64,000 bases of DNA, from the NCBI GenBank assembly GCA_945861865.1, contig CAMAWN010000004.1:1-64000 (forward strand), written 5' to 3'. The notes beneath the pieces were generated by a model that had not been told where the DNA came from, ran no database searches, and was given only the letters and a program-made list of their open reading frames with translations. The DNA is from Candidatus Kuenenia stuttgartensis. GTDB lineage: Bacteria > Planctomycetota > Planctomycetia > Planctomycetales > Planctomycetaceae. Made by a program: the position numbers and the translations under genes. Below, piece by piece: positions 20,753 to 29,084 of the stretch (position 1 is its first letter; every line of letters starts with the position of its first letter).

Positions 20753-23425
20753 TCACGCCTTGAGCGGCTCGACCTTTTCGGGATCGATCCCCAAATCTTT
20801 GAGAGCCTTCGACAGCTTCTTCTTATCGAAGGAACCGTTCTGAGCCAACGCCACGAGGGTCGTGTACGCGACACTTTCACCGTCAATTTCGAAGTGACGG
20901 CGGAGTTCCTCGCGGGTTTCGCTGCGGCCGAAACCGTCGGTGCCGAGAACGTGGTACGGGCCGGGAATCCAACTGCGGATTTGATCGGGAACCAGCCGAA
21001 CGTTGTCGCTGGATGCGATGAACGGGCCGGTGATGCTATCGAGCGTCGATTCGAGGTAACTTTTCTTCGGCTTCTCGGTCGGATGCAGACGGTTCCATCG
21101 CAGAGCCATCGAGGCGTCGCGGCAGAGTTCCGAATAGCTCGTCACGCTCCAAACGTCGCAGCCGATGCCGAACTTGTCACTCAGGATTTGCTGAGCACGC
21201 AGCACTTCGTTCAGGATCGGGCCGCTGCCGAATAGCTGCGGTCGTTCCTTCTGACCTTTCGAGCCGTCGGTGCTCTTGAAGCGATACATGCCGCGCACGA
21301 TGCCGTCGGTCACGCCATCCGGCATCGCCGGCATCGCGTAGTCTTCATTGTAGACGCTGAGGTAGTAGAAGATTTCTTCGTGCTCGACGTACATCCGCCG
21401 CATGCCGTCTTGGATGATGATGGCCAGTTCGTAGCCGTATGCCGGATCGTACGCCTTGAGATTCGGGACGCTCGTTGCGAAAAGCTGGCTGTGTCCGTCC
21501 TCGTGCTGCAAGCCTTCACCGTTGAGCGTCGTGCGACCCGATGTGCCGCCGACCAGAAAGCCTTTCGTCCGCGAATCGCCCGCGAGCCAAATCTGATCGC
21601 CGACGCGCTGGAATCCGAACATCGAGTAGTAAATGTAAAATGGCACCATGTGGATGCCGAGATTCGAGTACGCCGTGCCGGCCGCGACGAACGACGAGAT
21701 CGCTCCGGCTTCGTTGATCCCTTCTTCGAGAATCTGGCCGTCCTTCATTTCTTTGTAGTACATGAGCTGGTCGGCATCGACCGGCTCATAAAGCTGACCT
21801 TTGCTGGCGTAAATGCCGCATTGACGGAACAGTCCTTCCATGCCGAACGTGCGTGCCTCGTCCGGGATGATTGGCACAATCCGCGAGCCGATCTGCTTGT
21901 CCTTCAGCAGGCCACTGAGCAAGTACGTGAATGCAAACGTCGTCGAGCCTTCCGTTGCTCTGGCGATGTAGTTGAGAAACGACTCGACCGGCGGAACCGC
22001 GAGTTTTTCCGCGGTCGGACGCCGCGAGGGCAAGTAGCCGCCGAGCGACTGGCGACGCTCTTGCAGGTACTGCATCTCTGGGCTGTCGGGTGCCGGTTTG
22101 TAGAACGGAGCCTGATCGACTTCGTCGTCGGCGATCGGAATGCCGAACCTCGAACGGAACTCACGCAACTCCTGCTCGTTCGCCTTCTTGACGTTGTGGG
22201 CAACATTGCGTCCCTCGCCCGCTTCGCCGAGGCCGTAGCCCTTGATCGTCTTGGCGAGGATGACTGTCGGCGAACCTTTGTGCTCGACGGCCGACTGGTA
22301 CGCGGCGAAGACTTTTTCTGGATCGTGCCCGCCGCGTTTGAGCTTTTGCAGTTGCTCATCCGAGAGATTCTCGACCAGCTTCAGGGTTTTCGGATTCGCT
22401 CCGAAGAAGTGCTCGCGGATGTACGAGCCGGGTTCGACGACGTACTTCTGATACTGGCCGTCGACGACCTCGCCCATGCGGCGAACCAAGTCGCCGTCAC
22501 GATCGTCTTCCAAAAGCGGATCCCAATCGCCGCCCCAGACTACTTTAAGGCAATGCCAACCGGCTCCGCGGAATGCGCCTTCGAGCTCTTGGATGATCTT
22601 GCCATTGCCGCGCACTGGCCCGTCGAGTCGTTGCAGATTGCAATTCACGACGAAGATCAAGTTGTCGAGATTCTCTCGTGAGGCCAGCGTCAACGCGCCG
22701 AGCGTTTCGGGTTCATCGACTTCGCCATCCCCGACAAAGCACCAGACGTGCGACTGCGACGTGTCGAGCAGACCGCGATTTTCGAGGTATCGCAGGAATC
22801 TCGCCTGATAGATCGCCGTGATCGGACCGAGGCCCATCGACACCGTCGGGAACTGCCAGAAGTCCGGCATCAGCCACGGATGCGGGTACGACGACAAACC
22901 TTCGCCGGCAGGAAGCTCTTGTCGAAAATGTTCGAGATGATCTTCCGTAAGCCGGCCTTCAAGAAAGGCTCGCGCGTAAACTCCCGGCGACGCATGACCT
23001 TGAAAGTAGACGAGGTCGCCGGTGTGCTCGGCGTTCCGCCCGCGAAAGAAGTGATTGAACCCGATCTCGTACAGCGTTGCCGAGGAGGCGTACGTCGAGA
23101 TGTGGCCGCCGATCCCATTTTTCTCACGGTTGGCTCGGACAACCATCGCCATCGCGTTCCAGCGGATGATCGACTTGATGCGGCGTTCGATCTCACGATT
23201 GCCGGGGAAACGCGGCTGTCGATCCGGAGGAATCGTGTTGATGTACGGTGTGTTGGCCGTGAACGGCAACGTCACGCCGCGAACATAAGCTCGCTCCTGC
23301 AAGGCGGAAAGGAGATGCTGCACGCCTCCCTGACCATGTCGGTGGAGGATGTCGTCCAACGACTCAAACCACTCGTCCAATTCCTGGGAATCCAGCGGTG
23401 TCGAAACCGGTACCTCAAGCGTCAT
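20753..23425 (-). CDS. aceE: pyruvate dehydrogenase E1 component, homodimeric type
   Basis: 890 residues from the ATG at 23425, matching the roughly 890 of E. coli AceE. Thiamine diphosphate motif GDGEVDEPETLG ... VNCNLQRLDGPVRGNGKI, active-site loop region HNVKKANEQELREFRSRFGIP, and transketolase-like GMEGLFRQCGIYA and SGRTTLNGEGLQHEDGHS. It decarboxylates pyruvate and reductively acetylates the E2 lipoyl group. An in-frame extension to 23644 is open but has no AceE-like sequence. The ribosome site is weak (ACGAGA). First gene of the aceE-aceF-lpdA group; the cimA leader is transcribed divergently. Confidence 0.95.
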   Translation of the reverse strand: MTLEVPVSTPLDSQELDEWFESLDDILHRHGQGGVQHLLSALQERAYVRGVTLPFTANTPYINTIPPDRQPRFPGNREIERRIKSIIRWNAMAMVVRANREKNGIGGHISTYASSATLYEIGFNHFFRGRNAEHTGDLVYFQGHASPGVYARAFLEGRLTEDHLEHFRQELPAGEGLSSYPHPWLMPDFWQFPTVSMGLGPITAIYQARFLRYLENRGLLDTSQSHVWCFVGDGEVDEPETLGALTLASRENLDNLIFVVNCNLQRLDGPVRGNGKIIQELEGAFRGAGWHCLKVVWGGDWDPLLEDDRDGDLVRRMGEVVDGQYQKYVVEPGSYIREHFFGANPKTLKLVENLSDEQLQKLKRGGHDPEKVFAAYQSAVEHKGSPTVILAKTIKGYGLGEAGEGRNVAHNVKKANEQELREFRSRFGIPIADDEVDQAPFYKPAPDSPEMQYLQERRQSLGGYLPSRRPTAEKLAVPPVESFLNYIARATEGSTTFAFTYLLSGLLKDKQIGSRIVPIIPDEARTFGMEGLFRQCGIYASKGQLYEPVDADQLMYYKEMKDGQILEEGINEAGAISSFVAAGTAYSNLGIHMVPFYIYYSMFGFQRVGDQIWLAGDSRTKGFLVGGTSGRTTLNGEGLQHEDGHSQLFATSVPNLKAYDPAYGYELAIIIQDGMRRMYVEHEEIFYYLSVYNEDYAMPAMPDGVTDGIVRGMYRFKSTDGSKGQKERPQLFGSGPILNEVLRAQQILSDKFGIGCDVWSVTSYSELCRDASMALRWNRLHPTEKPKKSYLESTLDSITGPFIASSDNVRLVPDQIRSWIPGPYHVLGTDGFGRSETREELRRHFEIDGESVAYTTLVALAQNGSFDKKKLSKALKDLGIDPEKVEPLKA

Positions 23426-23704
23426 TGTCTCGTCTTCTGTCTGCGTTTCGGGGAGGCGGCGACACGGCTTCGGAGCACTCCGCCGCATTTCCACAATTTC
23501 CAATGTCAAAAATGAGTTCGGGATTATTGCGGCAGGCCAGAATGGGAGCAACTCGCCGGAAGCCGACGACGATTTGAGTCCGACACAAGACAAGATCAGC
23601 CCGGTCCTTGGCGCAATTCTGACCGATCGGCAAACTCGGCACAAAAGGAATGGTGGCGAACCTCAGCCTACTCGCCAGCGTATGAGTTGATGACGTGACG
23701 GAGT

Positions 23705-23733
23705 TTGACCGACACAAGGGTGTGGCCTATATT
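23705..23733 (+). promoter_or_regulatory. sigma70-type promoter for the cimA leader
   Basis: TTGACC (23705-23710), a 17-base spacer, and TATATT (23728-23733). Each hexamer matches consensus at five of six positions. Expected transcription start is near 23740, just before the leader ORF and terminator upstream of cimA. Confidence 0.6.
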
Positions 23734-23763
23734 CCTCTCGCATTTTGTCCACGGATGTTTGTC

Positions 23764-23853
23764 ATGCGACTCAATTTCCAATTTCCGATCTCCATTATCA
23801 CGGTCGCTGCCGGGATCAAGATTCCCGCCAGCGGCCCTTGCCATCGGCATTGA
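23764..23853 (+). CDS. putative leader peptide, isoleucine-rich
   Basis: 29-codon ORF starting ATG CGA CTC, with five Ile codons (positions 9, 11, 12, 18, 20) and one Val in the stretch ISIITVAAGIKI, followed by TGA. A weak GGAT lies about 7 bases upstream; an in-frame ATG at 23755 is an alternative. The Ile codons 18 and 20 fall in the loop of a predicted hairpin. Being so short, it cannot be told from chance by coding statistics; the case rests on content and position. Confidence 0.45.
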   Translation: MRLNFQFPISIITVAAGIKIPASGPCHRH

Positions 23854-23889
23854 GCTTGGGGTTTGTTTCTTTTCGTCACGACGTTGTCA

Positions 23890-23918
23890 CCCTCAGGTCG
23901 ATCGCCTGAGGGTTTTTT
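23890..23918 (+). terminator. intrinsic terminator upstream of cimA (attenuator)
   Basis: Stem CCCTCAGG (23890-23897) with CCTGAGGG (23105-offset region 23905-23912), 7-base loop TCGATCG, extended by one A-T pair, followed directly by six T residues (23913-23918). It ends 51 bases before the cimA ATG on the same strand, so it would stop cimA transcription unless read through. Confidence 0.85.
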
Positions 23919-23969
23919 ATTGGATGCGTGGATCTCAAATTTCAAATTGCAAAATGAGGCGGCACTGCG

Positions 23970-25580
23970 ATGACTCGAATCCAAATCTACGACACGACCC
24001 TGCGCGACGGCAGCCAGGGCGAGGGCGTGAACTTCTCGTTGCAGGACAAGCTGCTCATCACGCAGCGGCTGGATGAACTCGGCTTCGACTTCATCGAGGG
24101 GGGCTACCCGCTGTCGAACCCGAAGGACGCGGAGTATTTTCATCGGGCGCGAGACCTCGACTTGAAACACGCAACGGTGACGGCGTTCGGGATGACTCGG
24201 CGGCGCGGAGCGGCCCCTGAGGACGACACCGGCATGGTCGCGCTGCGGGACTCGCAGGCGAAGATTTGCGTGATCGTCGGCAAGACGTGGGACTTGCACG
24301 TCTTCGAAGTGCTGCGTGTCGATGAAGCGGAGAACCTCGCGATGATCCGCGACTCCGTCGGATTCCTGCATGGCGAAGGGCGACGAGTCTTCTACGACGC
24401 CGAGCACTTCTTTGACGGCTATCGAGCGAATCCAGATTTCGCGCTCAAGACAATCAGGGCCGCCGAAGAAGCCGGTGCCGAGATCGTCGTCCTCTGCGAC
24501 ACGAACGGCGGACGTCTGCCGGAAGAGGTTGCCGACGCCGTCAAGGCCGCGCGGCAGGCACTGACGATCCCGGTCGGCATTCATTGTCACAACGATTGTG
24601 ACTTGGCGGTCGCCAATTCGCTCGCGGCCGTGGATGTCGGAGCGATCCAAGTGCAAGGCACGGTCAACGGCATCGGCGAGCGGTGCGGTAACGTCGATCT
24701 GTGCAGCGTCGTGGCCAACCTCGCCTTGAAGAAGTCCGGTTACGAGGTGCTGACCGACGGCGGCCTGAAGCATCTCGCCGAGTTGTCGCGCTACGTCTAC
24801 GAACTCGCGAACATGAACTATCGCAACGGCCAGCCGTTCGTGGGGACCAGCGCGTTCGCTCACAAGGGCGGCATGCACGTGCATGCCGTCAATCGCTTGG
24901 CGAAGAGCTACGAGCACATCGAACCGGAAACCGTCGGCAACGTGCGACGAGTGCTCATCAGCGAACTGTCTGGCAAGTCGAACATTGTCGCCAAGACGAC
25001 GAAGTACGCGATCCAGAATGACTCGGCGATGATGCAAAAGATTCTTGACCGCGTGCAGGACCTGGAAAACGAAGGTTTTCAGTTTGAGGCCGCCGAGGCG
25101 TCGTTCGATCTGCTCGTCCGCAAGATCGTCGGCCAGTACGTCCCCAAATTCGAGAAGGTGCATTACCGCGTGAACGTCGAATCCGACGGCGGCCTGCGCG
25201 ACGATTCGGTCGCGGTCGTCTCGAACAGTGAAGTCGCCCCCGCGACCGAGGCGACGATCAAGCTGCGAGTCGCTGGCCACCTGGAACACGTCGTCGCTGA
25301 AGGAGACGGCCCAGTCAACGCGCTCGACACGGCGTTGCGCAAGGCTCTGATCCCGGCATACCCGAACCTCACCGAGATGCAGCTTGTGGACTACAAGGTC
25401 CGCGTCATCAATTCGACGGCCGGCACGGCGGCTCGCGTGCGAGTCGTCATCGAGAGCCGCGACCCGCACGAAATTTGGACAACCGTCGGCGTCAGCGAAA
25501 ACATCATCGAAGCCAGTTGGCTCGCGCTGGTGGATAGCGTCGAATACAAGTTGTTCAAGGACGAACAACCGGCGTCGTGA
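23970..25580 (+). CDS. cimA: (R)-citramalate synthase
   Basis: 536 residues. DRE-TIM aldolase start YDTTLRDGSQGEG, with IHCHNDCDLAVANSLAA providing metal-binding His and GTVNGIGERCGNVDL. The sequence AFAHKGGMHVHAV and the C-terminal LeuA dimer domain (about 390-530, allosteric) place it in the CimA type of the isopropylmalate/homocitrate synthase family. It condenses acetyl-CoA and pyruvate to citramalate, the threonine-independent route to 2-oxobutyrate and isoleucine. GAGGCGG precedes the ATG by about 8-10 bases. Regulation by the leader described at 23740-23918 is inferred. Its end overlaps the convergent gene by 26 bases. Confidence 0.93.
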   Translation: MTRIQIYDTTLRDGSQGEGVNFSLQDKLLITQRLDELGFDFIEGGYPLSNPKDAEYFHRARDLDLKHATVTAFGMTRRRGAAPEDDTGMVALRDSQAKICVIVGKTWDLHVFEVLRVDEAENLAMIRDSVGFLHGEGRRVFYDAEHFFDGYRANPDFALKTIRAAEEAGAEIVVLCDTNGGRLPEEVADAVKAARQALTIPVGIHCHNDCDLAVANSLAAVDVGAIQVQGTVNGIGERCGNVDLCSVVANLALKKSGYEVLTDGGLKHLAELSRYVYELANMNYRNGQPFVGTSAFAHKGGMHVHAVNRLAKSYEHIEPETVGNVRRVLISELSGKSNIVAKTTKYAIQNDSAMMQKILDRVQDLENEGFQFEAAEASFDLLVRKIVGQYVPKFEKVHYRVNVESDGGLRDDSVAVVSNSEVAPATEATIKLRVAGHLEHVVAEGDGPVNALDTALRKALIPAYPNLTEMQLVDYKVRVINSTAGTAARVRVVIESRDPHEIWTTVGVSENIIEASWLALVDSVEYKLFKDEQPAS

Positions 25581-26097: not shown

Positions 26098-27126
26098 TCA
26101 ATTCACGAACCAGGTGTCGCCACTGTTGAGCAGTTTCTCGACATCGCCTTCACCAAGCTTCGCGCGAGCGAATTCGACCTGCTTCGTCACGGACTCGTCA
26201 TAGGTCGAACGCTCGACGGCTCGGAAGATTCCCATCGGTTCGGGGAACTCCGGGTGTCTCATGCGGGAGAGCAAGAACGCCAATGACGGCTCTGTCGCCT
26301 TCTCATCGTGGAACAGCAAGTCATCTTCTTTCACGTCGCCGCCGAGTTGCACGATCTCGATGCGATTTCCTTCGGCAACGCGAATTCCCTTTTCACGATT
26401 CTTGCCAAAGATCAACGGCTTGCCGTGTTCGAGATAGACGATGCTGTCGCTGCGAGTCTCCTTGTCGGTGGCGTAGCTGAATGCCCCGGGGTTGAAGACG
26501 TTGCAGTCTTGATAGACCTCGACAAACGCCGTGCCTTTGTGGTGCGCGGCTCGTTCGAGAACCATCGTGAGATGCTTGATGTCCACATCGACCGAACGGG
26601 CGACGAAAGTGGCTTCGGCCCCGATCGCGACTGACAGCGGCGTCAGCGGGTGATCGATCGAGCCATACGGCGTGCTCTTGCTTTTCTTGCCGACCGGGCT
26701 GGTCGGCGAGTACTGGCCCTTGGTCAGACCATAAATCTGGTTGTTGAAGAGGATGATCTTCATATCGATGTTACGGCGGATGGAATGCAAAAAGTGATTG
26801 CCGCCGATCGACAGGGCATCGCCGTCACCGGTAATGACCCAAACTTGCAGGTCCGGATTGGCTAACTTCACGCCCGTCGCAACCGCTGGAGCGCGGCCGT
26901 GAATGCTGTGCAGGCCATACGTGTTCACGTAGTACGGAAAACGGCTGCTGCAACCGATGCCCGACACGAAGCAGAATTTCTCTTTCGGAATACCCAGCGT
27001 CGGGAGCACCTTTTTCATCTGGGCGAGAATCGAGTAATCGCCGCAGCGCGGGCACCAGCGGACTTCCTGGTCGCTGGCGAAGTCTTTCGATTGAAGTGTT
27101 GGAAGAGCTGGCAGATCGACGGACAT
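26098..27126 (-). CDS. korB: 2-oxoacid:ferredoxin oxidoreductase, beta subunit
   Basis: 342 residues. Iron-sulfur Cys pair WCPRCGDY (C25, C28) with further Cys in SGIGCSSR and QDCNVFN, and the thiamine diphosphate motif GDGDALSIGGNH ... LFNNQIYGLTKGQYSPTS. Together with the alpha subunit it oxidatively decarboxylates a 2-oxoacid (2-oxoglutarate or pyruvate) to the acyl-CoA with ferredoxin as acceptor, or runs in reverse. AAGGTG precedes the ATG. It follows korA by 80 bases, which hold a dispersed repeat, and ends before a strong terminator. Confidence 0.93.
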   Translation of the reverse strand: MSVDLPALPTLQSKDFASDQEVRWCPRCGDYSILAQMKKVLPTLGIPKEKFCFVSGIGCSSRFPYYVNTYGLHSIHGRAPAVATGVKLANPDLQVWVITGDGDALSIGGNHFLHSIRRNIDMKIILFNNQIYGLTKGQYSPTSPVGKKSKSTPYGSIDHPLTPLSVAIGAEATFVARSVDVDIKHLTMVLERAAHHKGTAFVEVYQDCNVFNPGAFSYATDKETRSDSIVYLEHGKPLIFGKNREKGIRVAEGNRIEIVQLGGDVKEDDLLFHDEKATEPSLAFLLSRMRHPEFPEPMGIFRAVERSTYDESVTKQVEFARAKLGEGDVEKLLNSGDTWFVN

Positions 27127-27162
27127 GAGACAATCACCTTTTGCAGAGTTCGCAGTTGTTTG

Positions 27163-27189
27163 AAAAACTAGCCCAAAGCGCGAGCGAGG
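27163..27189. repeat. dispersed repeat ACTAGCCCxAAGCGCGAGCGAGG (family B)
   Basis: Located in the korA-korB gap. Nearly the same text occurs at 63044-63070 inside murG, and a diverged form, read on the minus strand, at about 47251-47275. Core AAGCGYGAGCGAGG. Confidence 0.7.
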
Positions 27190-27206
27190 TTTTTGACTGG
27201 ATTTGT

Positions 27207-29084
27207 CTAACCGTGGAATTCGTTGATCACGTTGACCAGTTCGTTCACGAGGAACGGCTTGCCTTCGATCTTGTTGTAGCCTTGAGCATCGACGAGGAAC
27301 TGATTACGGAGCAACAGCCGCAACTGACCGCAGTTCAATTCCGGCACGAGCACCTTTTCGTAGCTCTTCACGATCGTGCCGAGGTTGCGCGGAAACGGGT
27401 TCATGTATTTCAGGTGCGTGTGAGCGACCGATTTTCCCGCGGCCTGAGCCTGTTGGACCGCCGTGCGGACGGCTCCGTAAGTCCCGCCCCAACTGATGAC
27501 GAGCAGCTTGCCGGACGCCGGACCATCCACCGTTTGTTCGGGAATGAAATTGGCGATGTTCGCGACCTTCTGAGCTCGCGTGTTGGTCATGTGCTGATGG
27601 TTCTTCGGCGAGTAATCGATGTTGCCGGTGACATCCTTTTTTTCGAGTCCGCCGATGCGGTGTTCCAAGCCTTTTGTGCCCGGCTTGGCCCACGGGCGAG
27701 CGAGCTTTTCATTCCGCTTGTACGGCAGGTATCCGCCGTTCTCACCGTTCGCTGAGGTGATGTGCTCGATCTTCAAGCGCGGCAAGTCTTCGATCTTCGG
27801 AATTTGCCACGGCTCAGCTCCGTTGGCGATGTAGCCGTCGGAGAGGAAGATCACCGGGCACATGAACTCGGTGGCGATGCGAAACGCTTCTTGAATCATC
27901 GAGAAACAATCGCCAGGGCCACTCGCCGCGACGATCGGCAGCGGCGATTCGCCGTTGCGGCCGTACATGGCGAGCAACAAATCGGATTGTTCTGTCTTGG
28001 TCGGCAAGCCGGTGCTCGGCCCGCCGCGCTGGACATCAATGATGACCATTGGCAACTCGGTCATCATTCCCAGGCCCATCGCCTCACCCTTCAGGCAGAT
28101 ACCGGGACCGCTGCTGGCGGTGACCGCCAGTTCTCCCGCGAAGGCGGAACCCACACACGCAGCCATCGCGGCAATTTCGTCTTCCGCTTGAAACGTCTTC
28201 ACGCCGAAGTGCTTGAACGCTGACAGGTCATGCAGAATGTCACTGGCCGGCGTGATCGGATAACCGCTGAAGACGACGGTCTTGCCAGAGAGCTTGGCCA
28301 TGGTCGCCAGACCCATCGCGACCGCTTCGTTGCCGGTGATCTTGCGGTACTTGCCAGCGGGCAGTTTGGCCGGCGGAACGTGATAATGGACCGTGAAGGA
28401 CTCGGTCGAGAAGCCGTAATTCATGCCGGCTCGCAGTGCCCGCAGGTTGGCTTCGACGACGTCCGGCTTCTTGGCGAACTTCGCCCGAATGTTGTCTTCG
28501 GTCGGCTTCGGATCACGGTCGTACAACCAGTAAACCAAGCCCAACGCGAAGAAATTACGGCACAGGTCCGCGGCTTTCAGCGAAAGCCCCAGACCTTCGA
28601 CCGCGTCGCGGTTGAGCCGCGTCATCGGCACTTTGTGGACGCGGAACTTGGCCATCAAGGTTTCGTTGTCGAGCGGGTTGGCCTCGTACAGCGCCTTCTG
28701 CAGACCGCTCTTGTTGAACTCTTCCTCGTTGACGATCAGCGTGCCGCCACGCTTGAGATCTTCGACGTTCGTCTTGAGCGCCGCCGGATTCATCGCAACC
28801 AGCGTGTCAACGGCATCACCCGGAGTGAAGATGTCGTGATTCGAGAAGCACAATTGATAGCCGGAAACACCGAAGAGTGAACCGGCGGGAGCACGAATTT
28901 CGGCGGGGAAATCGGGGAACGTACGAACGTCATTGCCAAACATGGCCGAGGCGTTCGTCATCTGTCCTCCGGCCTGCTGCATTCCGTCGCCGGAGTCGCC
29001 GCAAAAGCGGATGACGACTGTTTCGAGGTTCTCCAGTGGCTTGCCGTTGGTGGAGGCGGGAGCATCCAGTGTGGCGGTTGACAT
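27207..29084 (-). CDS. korA: 2-oxoacid:ferredoxin oxidoreductase, fused gamma-alpha subunit
   Basis: 625 residues. The N-terminal 200 form the gamma domain ([30 protein letters not shown]); residues 215-460 are the pyrimidine-binding alpha domain ([70 protein letters not shown]); the rest is the C-terminal transketolase-like domain. This gamma-alpha fusion is standard for KorA. AGGAG lies about 11 bases before the ATG. The only partner gene needed, korB, follows. Pyruvate versus 2-oxoglutarate specificity cannot be read from the sequence. Confidence 0.93.

Follow-up and report, generated by a model that had tools for sequence, protein, structure and literature searches.

An isoleucine-codon candidate attenuator of cimA and its leucine counterpart at leuA in Planctomycetota

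Introduction

Attenuation of amino-acid genes is known above all from Proteobacteria, Actinobacteria and some Firmicutes. The attenuators of the branched-chain amino acid (BCAA) operons of E. coli, namely ilvGMEDA (ilvL), ilvBN and leuABCD (leuL), encode a leader peptide in which the regulated residue is abundant and comprise four RNA regions, 1 to 4, whose 2:3 and 3:4 pairings exclude each other, and a terminator before the first structural gene. Classical attenuation thus requires a region 2 that is able to pair with the 5' arm of the terminator. Citramalate synthase, the product of cimA, uses pyruvate and acetyl-CoA as substrates, and its own product leads to isoleucine.

Published cases of amino-acid attenuation come from Proteobacteria, Actinobacteria (PMC1262725) and Firmicutes (PMC5794164, PMC2965389). 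In Actinobacteria, candidate leader peptides and terminators were found at ilvB (Seliverstov et al. 2005, PMC1262725), and Staphylococcus aureus has a leucine-rich, ribosome-mediated ilv attenuator (PMC5794164). A leader-gene statistic published in 2016 mentions Planctomycetes, though not cimA or leuA attenuation (PMC4833913).

Here we analyze a putative attenuator directly upstream of cimA in a 64,000-nucleotide stretch of planctomycete DNA (the window, whose first letter is position 1). Like the E. coli BCAA attenuators, the predicted element has a residue-rich leader, exclusive 2:3 and 3:4 pairings and a terminator ahead of the gene; unlike them, it matches no Rfam leader family, and unlike the E. 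coli ilv attenuators, it would control cimA alone, the ilvB genes of the planctomycete genomes analyzed here being without such a leader. With the actinobacterial ilvB leaders (PMC1262725) it shares a leader peptide and a terminator before a BCAA gene, but the phylum differs and the gene is cimA, not ilvB; leuA, for its part, carries a LEU element in Actinobacteria and a Leu leader peptide in planctomycetes. The S. aureus attenuator (PMC5794164) is likewise an instance of ribosome-mediated BCAA attenuation by a residue-rich leader, but it joins leucine to the ilv operon in a Firmicute, whereas the planctomycete element joins isoleucine to cimA.

Results

The original prediction had placed a promoter, an isoleucine-rich short open reading frame (ORF), a hairpin and an intrinsic terminator in front of cimA, and all of these are present on the forward strand. 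The promoter, TTGACC-17 bp-TATATT, lies where it was claimed (-35 hexamer at 23705-23710, -10 hexamer at 23728-23733) and is the only sigma-70-like site in a 3-kb scan; its -35 element, in the conserved form TTTGACC, is invariant in nine genus-level sequences, and its -10 element is kept in the genus as TATATT or TATAGT. The predicted leader ORF, MRLNFQFPISIITVAAGIKIPASGPCHRH, spans 29 codons (23764-23853, ATG at 23764, TGA at 23851-23853), and its coordinates and residues match the claim of five isoleucines and one valine within 12 residues: isoleucine occupies codons 9, 11, 12, 18 and 20 (23788, 23794, 23797, 23815 and 23821) and valine codon 14. Folding places the hairpin within the ORF at 23802-23836, where it possibly acts as an RNA polymerase pause hairpin, a role that we infer. 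The terminator consists of a stem at 23889-23913 and a U-run, TTTTTT, at 23913-23918, and its end is separated from the start of cimA (23970-25580, the presumed regulated gene) by the predicted 51 bases. The assignment of this gene as citramalate synthase was borne out by its match to TIGR00977 (671.8 bits, cut-off 450).

The leader as a whole is structured (fold z -2.1), ends in the terminator and can be divided into four regions. Region 1, CGATCTCCATTATCA (23786-23800), covers isoleucine codons 9, 11 and 12 and is predicted to pair as a protector with region 2 when the ribosome is absent (duplex of -9.8 kcal/mol). Region 2, ATTGAGCTTGGGGT (23849-23862), lies across the leader stop codon and, judging by the cognate-pairing tests described below, would be the 5' arm of an antiterminator. 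Region 3 (23889-23898) is the 5' arm of the terminator and would also provide the 3' arm of the antiterminator, whose pairing reaches 23902, and region 4 (23904-23913) is the 3' arm of the terminator. The antiterminator (23849-23862 with 23889-23902) and the 1:2 protector pairing are additions to the original prediction. As to the surroundings, cimA is flanked by a divergent aceE (pyruvate dehydrogenase E1, TIGR00759; window 20753-23500, minus strand) on one side and by the beta and alpha subunits of a 2-oxoacid:ferredoxin oxidoreductase (window 26098-29084, minus strand) on the other.

Such an arrangement is confirmed to be far beyond chance. For the window, none of 200 dinucleotide shuffles attained five isoleucines in 12 codons, and among the strong terminators of the window genome, which are rare (23 in the 464 kb sampled), only that of the cimA locus (1 of 23) follows a short ORF with more than 3 isoleucines in 12 codons. 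The scarcity of strong terminators makes those lying in 5' leaders conspicuous, and could be used for finding further attenuators.

Conservation was assessed in 80 related cimA loci (the relatives set), drawn from planctomycetes with a few from elsewhere. In 49 loci having a terminator, the best leader ORF contained on average 4.0 isoleucines per 12 codons, compared to 0.75 in dinucleotide shuffles, with an enrichment of p<=0.01 in 34, and the gap between the leader ORF and the terminator stem measured 20-36 nt in most loci. At the genus level (nine sequences), TTTGACC, the -10 box, most isoleucine codons and the terminator were kept while the flanks had diverged, and the leader start codon was retained in 8 of the 9; a codon-position test on the same sequences gave no clear synonymous bias in the leader, substitutions being even over positions 1, 2 and 3. 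The conservation that had been put forward as a check thus holds within the genus for the isoleucine codons, the terminator and the promoter. Beyond it, the layout recurs with differing letters in several families of Planctomycetia and in Phycisphaerae, as in the cimA leaders MSFPYSGRSLHVSTAIIAARIIVISIIGDV (L008), MSVSYTDYVSSIIIICKITGSS (Gimesia, L013), MTTANASIIAIAIIITYPM (strain ZRK32, L069), MIYLINIITTIIIRYQ (Sedimentisphaerales, L071) and MNIQNIIISIIINIGGD (L229), each followed by a terminator. Outside Gemmataceae, the leader peptides have almost nothing in common but their isoleucine and valine content.

In a separate draw of 56 cimA upstream regions from the phylum, a leader with a terminator was found in 20, a few of which are strains already in the relatives set (e.g., L233 = L011 and L244 = L022). 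These positives include 12 of the 13 regions from the window's family, and others belong to families f5, f7, f39, f43 (3/3) and f51 (2/4); in this draw the combination was not found in f36, f38, f57, f58, f14, f30 and other families. Nor was an attenuator found at cimA of L019, L158 (G010), L045, L046, L053 and L055-L064. The position immediately before cimA is taken by another gene in L019 and apparently also in L158. The cimA element is therefore widespread in the phylum and not universal.

We then consider the pairing on which attenuation depends. Across 56 loci, the most stable duplex that the stop-codon region forms with the 5' arm of the terminator surpassed that of shuffled sequences (mean z -2.4), the 5' end of region 2 falling at -10 to +5 of the leader stop codon in most loci. 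The terminator arms vary by lineage (ACCCTCAGG, GACCCCGGAG, AGCCCTACC, AAGCTCTGGA and others), with parallel changes in region 2: cognate duplexes had a mean energy of -17.0 kcal/mol, as against -12.2 kcal/mol for non-cognate combinations with divergent arms (p=6e-9 with loci as units, p=0.016 with the 8 arm clusters as units). Further leader-bearing loci, mostly from the phylum draw and some of them repeating strains from the relatives set, had the pairing in 20 of 20 cases (p<=0.04, mean z -3.4), and 24 loci of Gemmataceae gave a mean z of -2.3. In the window itself, the duplex of 23849-23862 with 23889-23902 (-14.3 kcal/mol, two mismatches) was modestly better than shuffles at a z of only -1.4, and the case for the window's antiterminator therefore rests on its relatives. 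Taken across lineages, these sequences contain a predicted antiterminator of the kind needed for attenuation, and it covaries with the terminator.

The effect of a ribosome on leader folding, also suggested as a check, was simulated by placing a ribosome footprint on a transcript ending before region 4, and such truncated transcripts differed in 2:3 pairing between states. In the window, the expected number of 2:3 pairs was 11.3 with the ribosome on the isoleucine codons, 0.1 with the ribosome on the stop codon and 4.8 without a ribosome, a contrast between stop and stall that is partly built in, because the stop-codon footprint blocks region 2. The drop to 4.8 without a ribosome arises because region 1 pairs with region 2; this protector pairing is present in the window, and many relatives keep 2:3 without a ribosome. 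The means over all loci were 6.5, 0.65 and 5.9, respectively. Some genus members folded poorly in the simulation (L005, L152, L153, L155 and L156). In the complete transcript at equilibrium, the terminator was favored in every ribosome state and only truncated transcripts separated the states; since the terminator is preferred once region 4 has been made, switching must be kinetic.

The proposed course of events is as follows. RNA polymerase would start near 23740, and a ribosome would translate the leader while the RNA is being synthesized. With ample isoleucine, the ribosome would get to the stop codon at 23851 and cover region 2, the 3:4 terminator would form and cimA would be off. With charged tRNA-Ile scarce, the ribosome would stall at isoleucine codons 9-20, disrupting the 1:2 pairing and leaving region 2 free to pair with region 3 ahead of the synthesis of region 4, such that no terminator would form and cimA would be on. 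In an untranslated leader, regions 1 and 2 would pair and the terminator would form. What we infer in this scheme is where transcription begins, that it does end at the terminator and how cimA responds to isoleucine.

A second element of the same layout was found in the window genome at leuA, where a leucine-rich leader, MRSSLRLLALSLLLR, is followed by a gap of ~40 nt, a strong terminator and then leuA (L099 at 11838, and L139; the leader region is L099:11690-11990, equal to C17:21690-21990). Compared to the cimA leader, leucine replaces isoleucine and the terminator sequence differs. The leucine leader and terminator are conserved, with variants, in relatives, and leuA leaders of other families read MPNLPLLLKLLRLRPGR, MAWTLLLLTLLRGEA and MPCISLLPLLLLTGLRP. 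This element is a candidate leucine attenuator. In the same genomes, neither a terminator nor a matching leader was found at ilvB (0/22), trpE (0/15) or hisG (0/16). Judged by these predicted leaders, the residue agrees with the pathway in which the gene acts, leucine for isopropylmalate synthase and isoleucine for citramalate synthase.

Gemmataceae present a variant of their own. Their cimA leaders mix isoleucine and valine, often with GCGCAGGGAGTGCGC, a 15-base hairpin that reads AQGVR in frame. Searching 297 genomes for its pattern gave 39 matches in 37 of them, compared to 3 matches of a reversed control, and in 29 of the 30 loci fetched it lay 138-267 bases upstream of cimA, within an isoleucine/valine leader ORF. 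The hairpin-bearing loci of Gemmataceae are L169-L198 together with L023, L027, L030, L034, L037, L040 and L044, and it is on the latter seven, found through cimA, that constancy is better judged, as the scan pattern itself fixed most letters. Third codon positions are constant in the AQGVR segment and vary just before it, and in L167 a G and a C replace the closing A-T pair of the hairpin (GCGCGGGGAGCGCGC); the segment therefore looks like an RNA hairpin. It may serve as a pause signal, or else perhaps as an internal Shine-Dalgarno-like site.

Discussion

We conclude, with a probability of roughly 0.9, that the region upstream of cimA is a classical ribosome-mediated transcription attenuator of the trp/ilv/leu type, sensing charged tRNA-Ile. 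The original prediction of an isoleucine attenuator is supported by the conservation of the element, its covarying antiterminator and the match between residue and gene, in addition to the anatomy of the locus and the predicted folding difference between ribosome states.

Another reading is nascent-peptide arrest, in which free isoleucine or some other small molecule, and not a shortage of charged tRNA-Ile, would make the leader peptide stall its ribosome. The attenuation scheme does have the leader translated, and the leaders of Gemmataceae do share an AAQGVR segment, but in that segment the third codon positions, too, are constant and a hairpin forms, a pattern that speaks for RNA, and the peptides outside Gemmataceae share little but isoleucine and valine, the mark of codon counting. 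Arrest at high isoleucine would likewise leave region 2 free and so give the wrong sign. We regard this reading as very improbable. The lack of peptide conservation beyond isoleucine and valine also weighs against the idea, which we find more improbable still, that the terminated leader acts chiefly as a small RNA, or codes for a small protein with a function of its own, the terminator being an ordinary 3' end. A full promoter-ORF-terminator unit is indeed present, as this idea would have it; yet the unit includes a covarying antiterminator, stays directly upstream of cimA in diverse families and has a matching leucine version at leuA.

That a metabolite riboswitch or a T-box controls cimA, with the ORF incidental, is scarcely credible to us. 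The long structured leader ending in a terminator would suit it, but there is no aptamer-like conserved core, and 34 of 49 loci hold more isoleucine codons than shuffles do (p<=0.01). An Rfam scan of the window and 20 relatives at the gathering threshold found no riboswitch, T-box or known leader, and one tRNA only; membership of a T-box or amino-acid riboswitch class was rejected, there being no relevant match to a curated covariance model. A chance association of an isoleucine-rich frame with a terminator has nothing but the small size of the element to speak for it and next to no probability: the shuffles, the 464-kb genome control, the cognate-pairing tests and the 20 of 20 further loci all stand against it, and conservation refutes it.

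The mechanism of attenuation is already known; the phylum, the target gene cimA and the pairing of leuA with cimA are new. Our literature search found no report of a planctomycete or cimA attenuator, with priority uncertain, the broadest survey (Lopatovskaya et al. 2010) being outside its coverage. If the present reading holds, attenuation is conserved across families of a further phylum, with cimA as a new target.

Its chief significance concerns coupling. For Gemmata, a spatial separation of transcription and translation was proposed, and coupling questioned, in work from 2014 that PMC5394234 and PMC5287468 cite. The predicted switch would fail unless a ribosome kept close to the advancing polymerase, and it therefore depends on the coupling of transcription to translation. 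Gemmata sp. IIL30 has it (L051; antiterminator of -18.6 kcal/mol, z -2.3), as do other Gemmataceae, and coupling can therefore be tested directly there, at a defined gene. We consider it rather probable that a matched pair of attenuators, leucine at leuA and isoleucine at cimA, governs the sister enzymes opening the leucine and isoleucine branches in Planctomycetota, and that translation during transcription would be obligatory at least for these genes in cells of the kind for which spatial separation was proposed, since the switch sits also in Gemmata and its family, where many carry the extra conserved hairpin GCGCAGGGAGUGCGC within the leader ORF.
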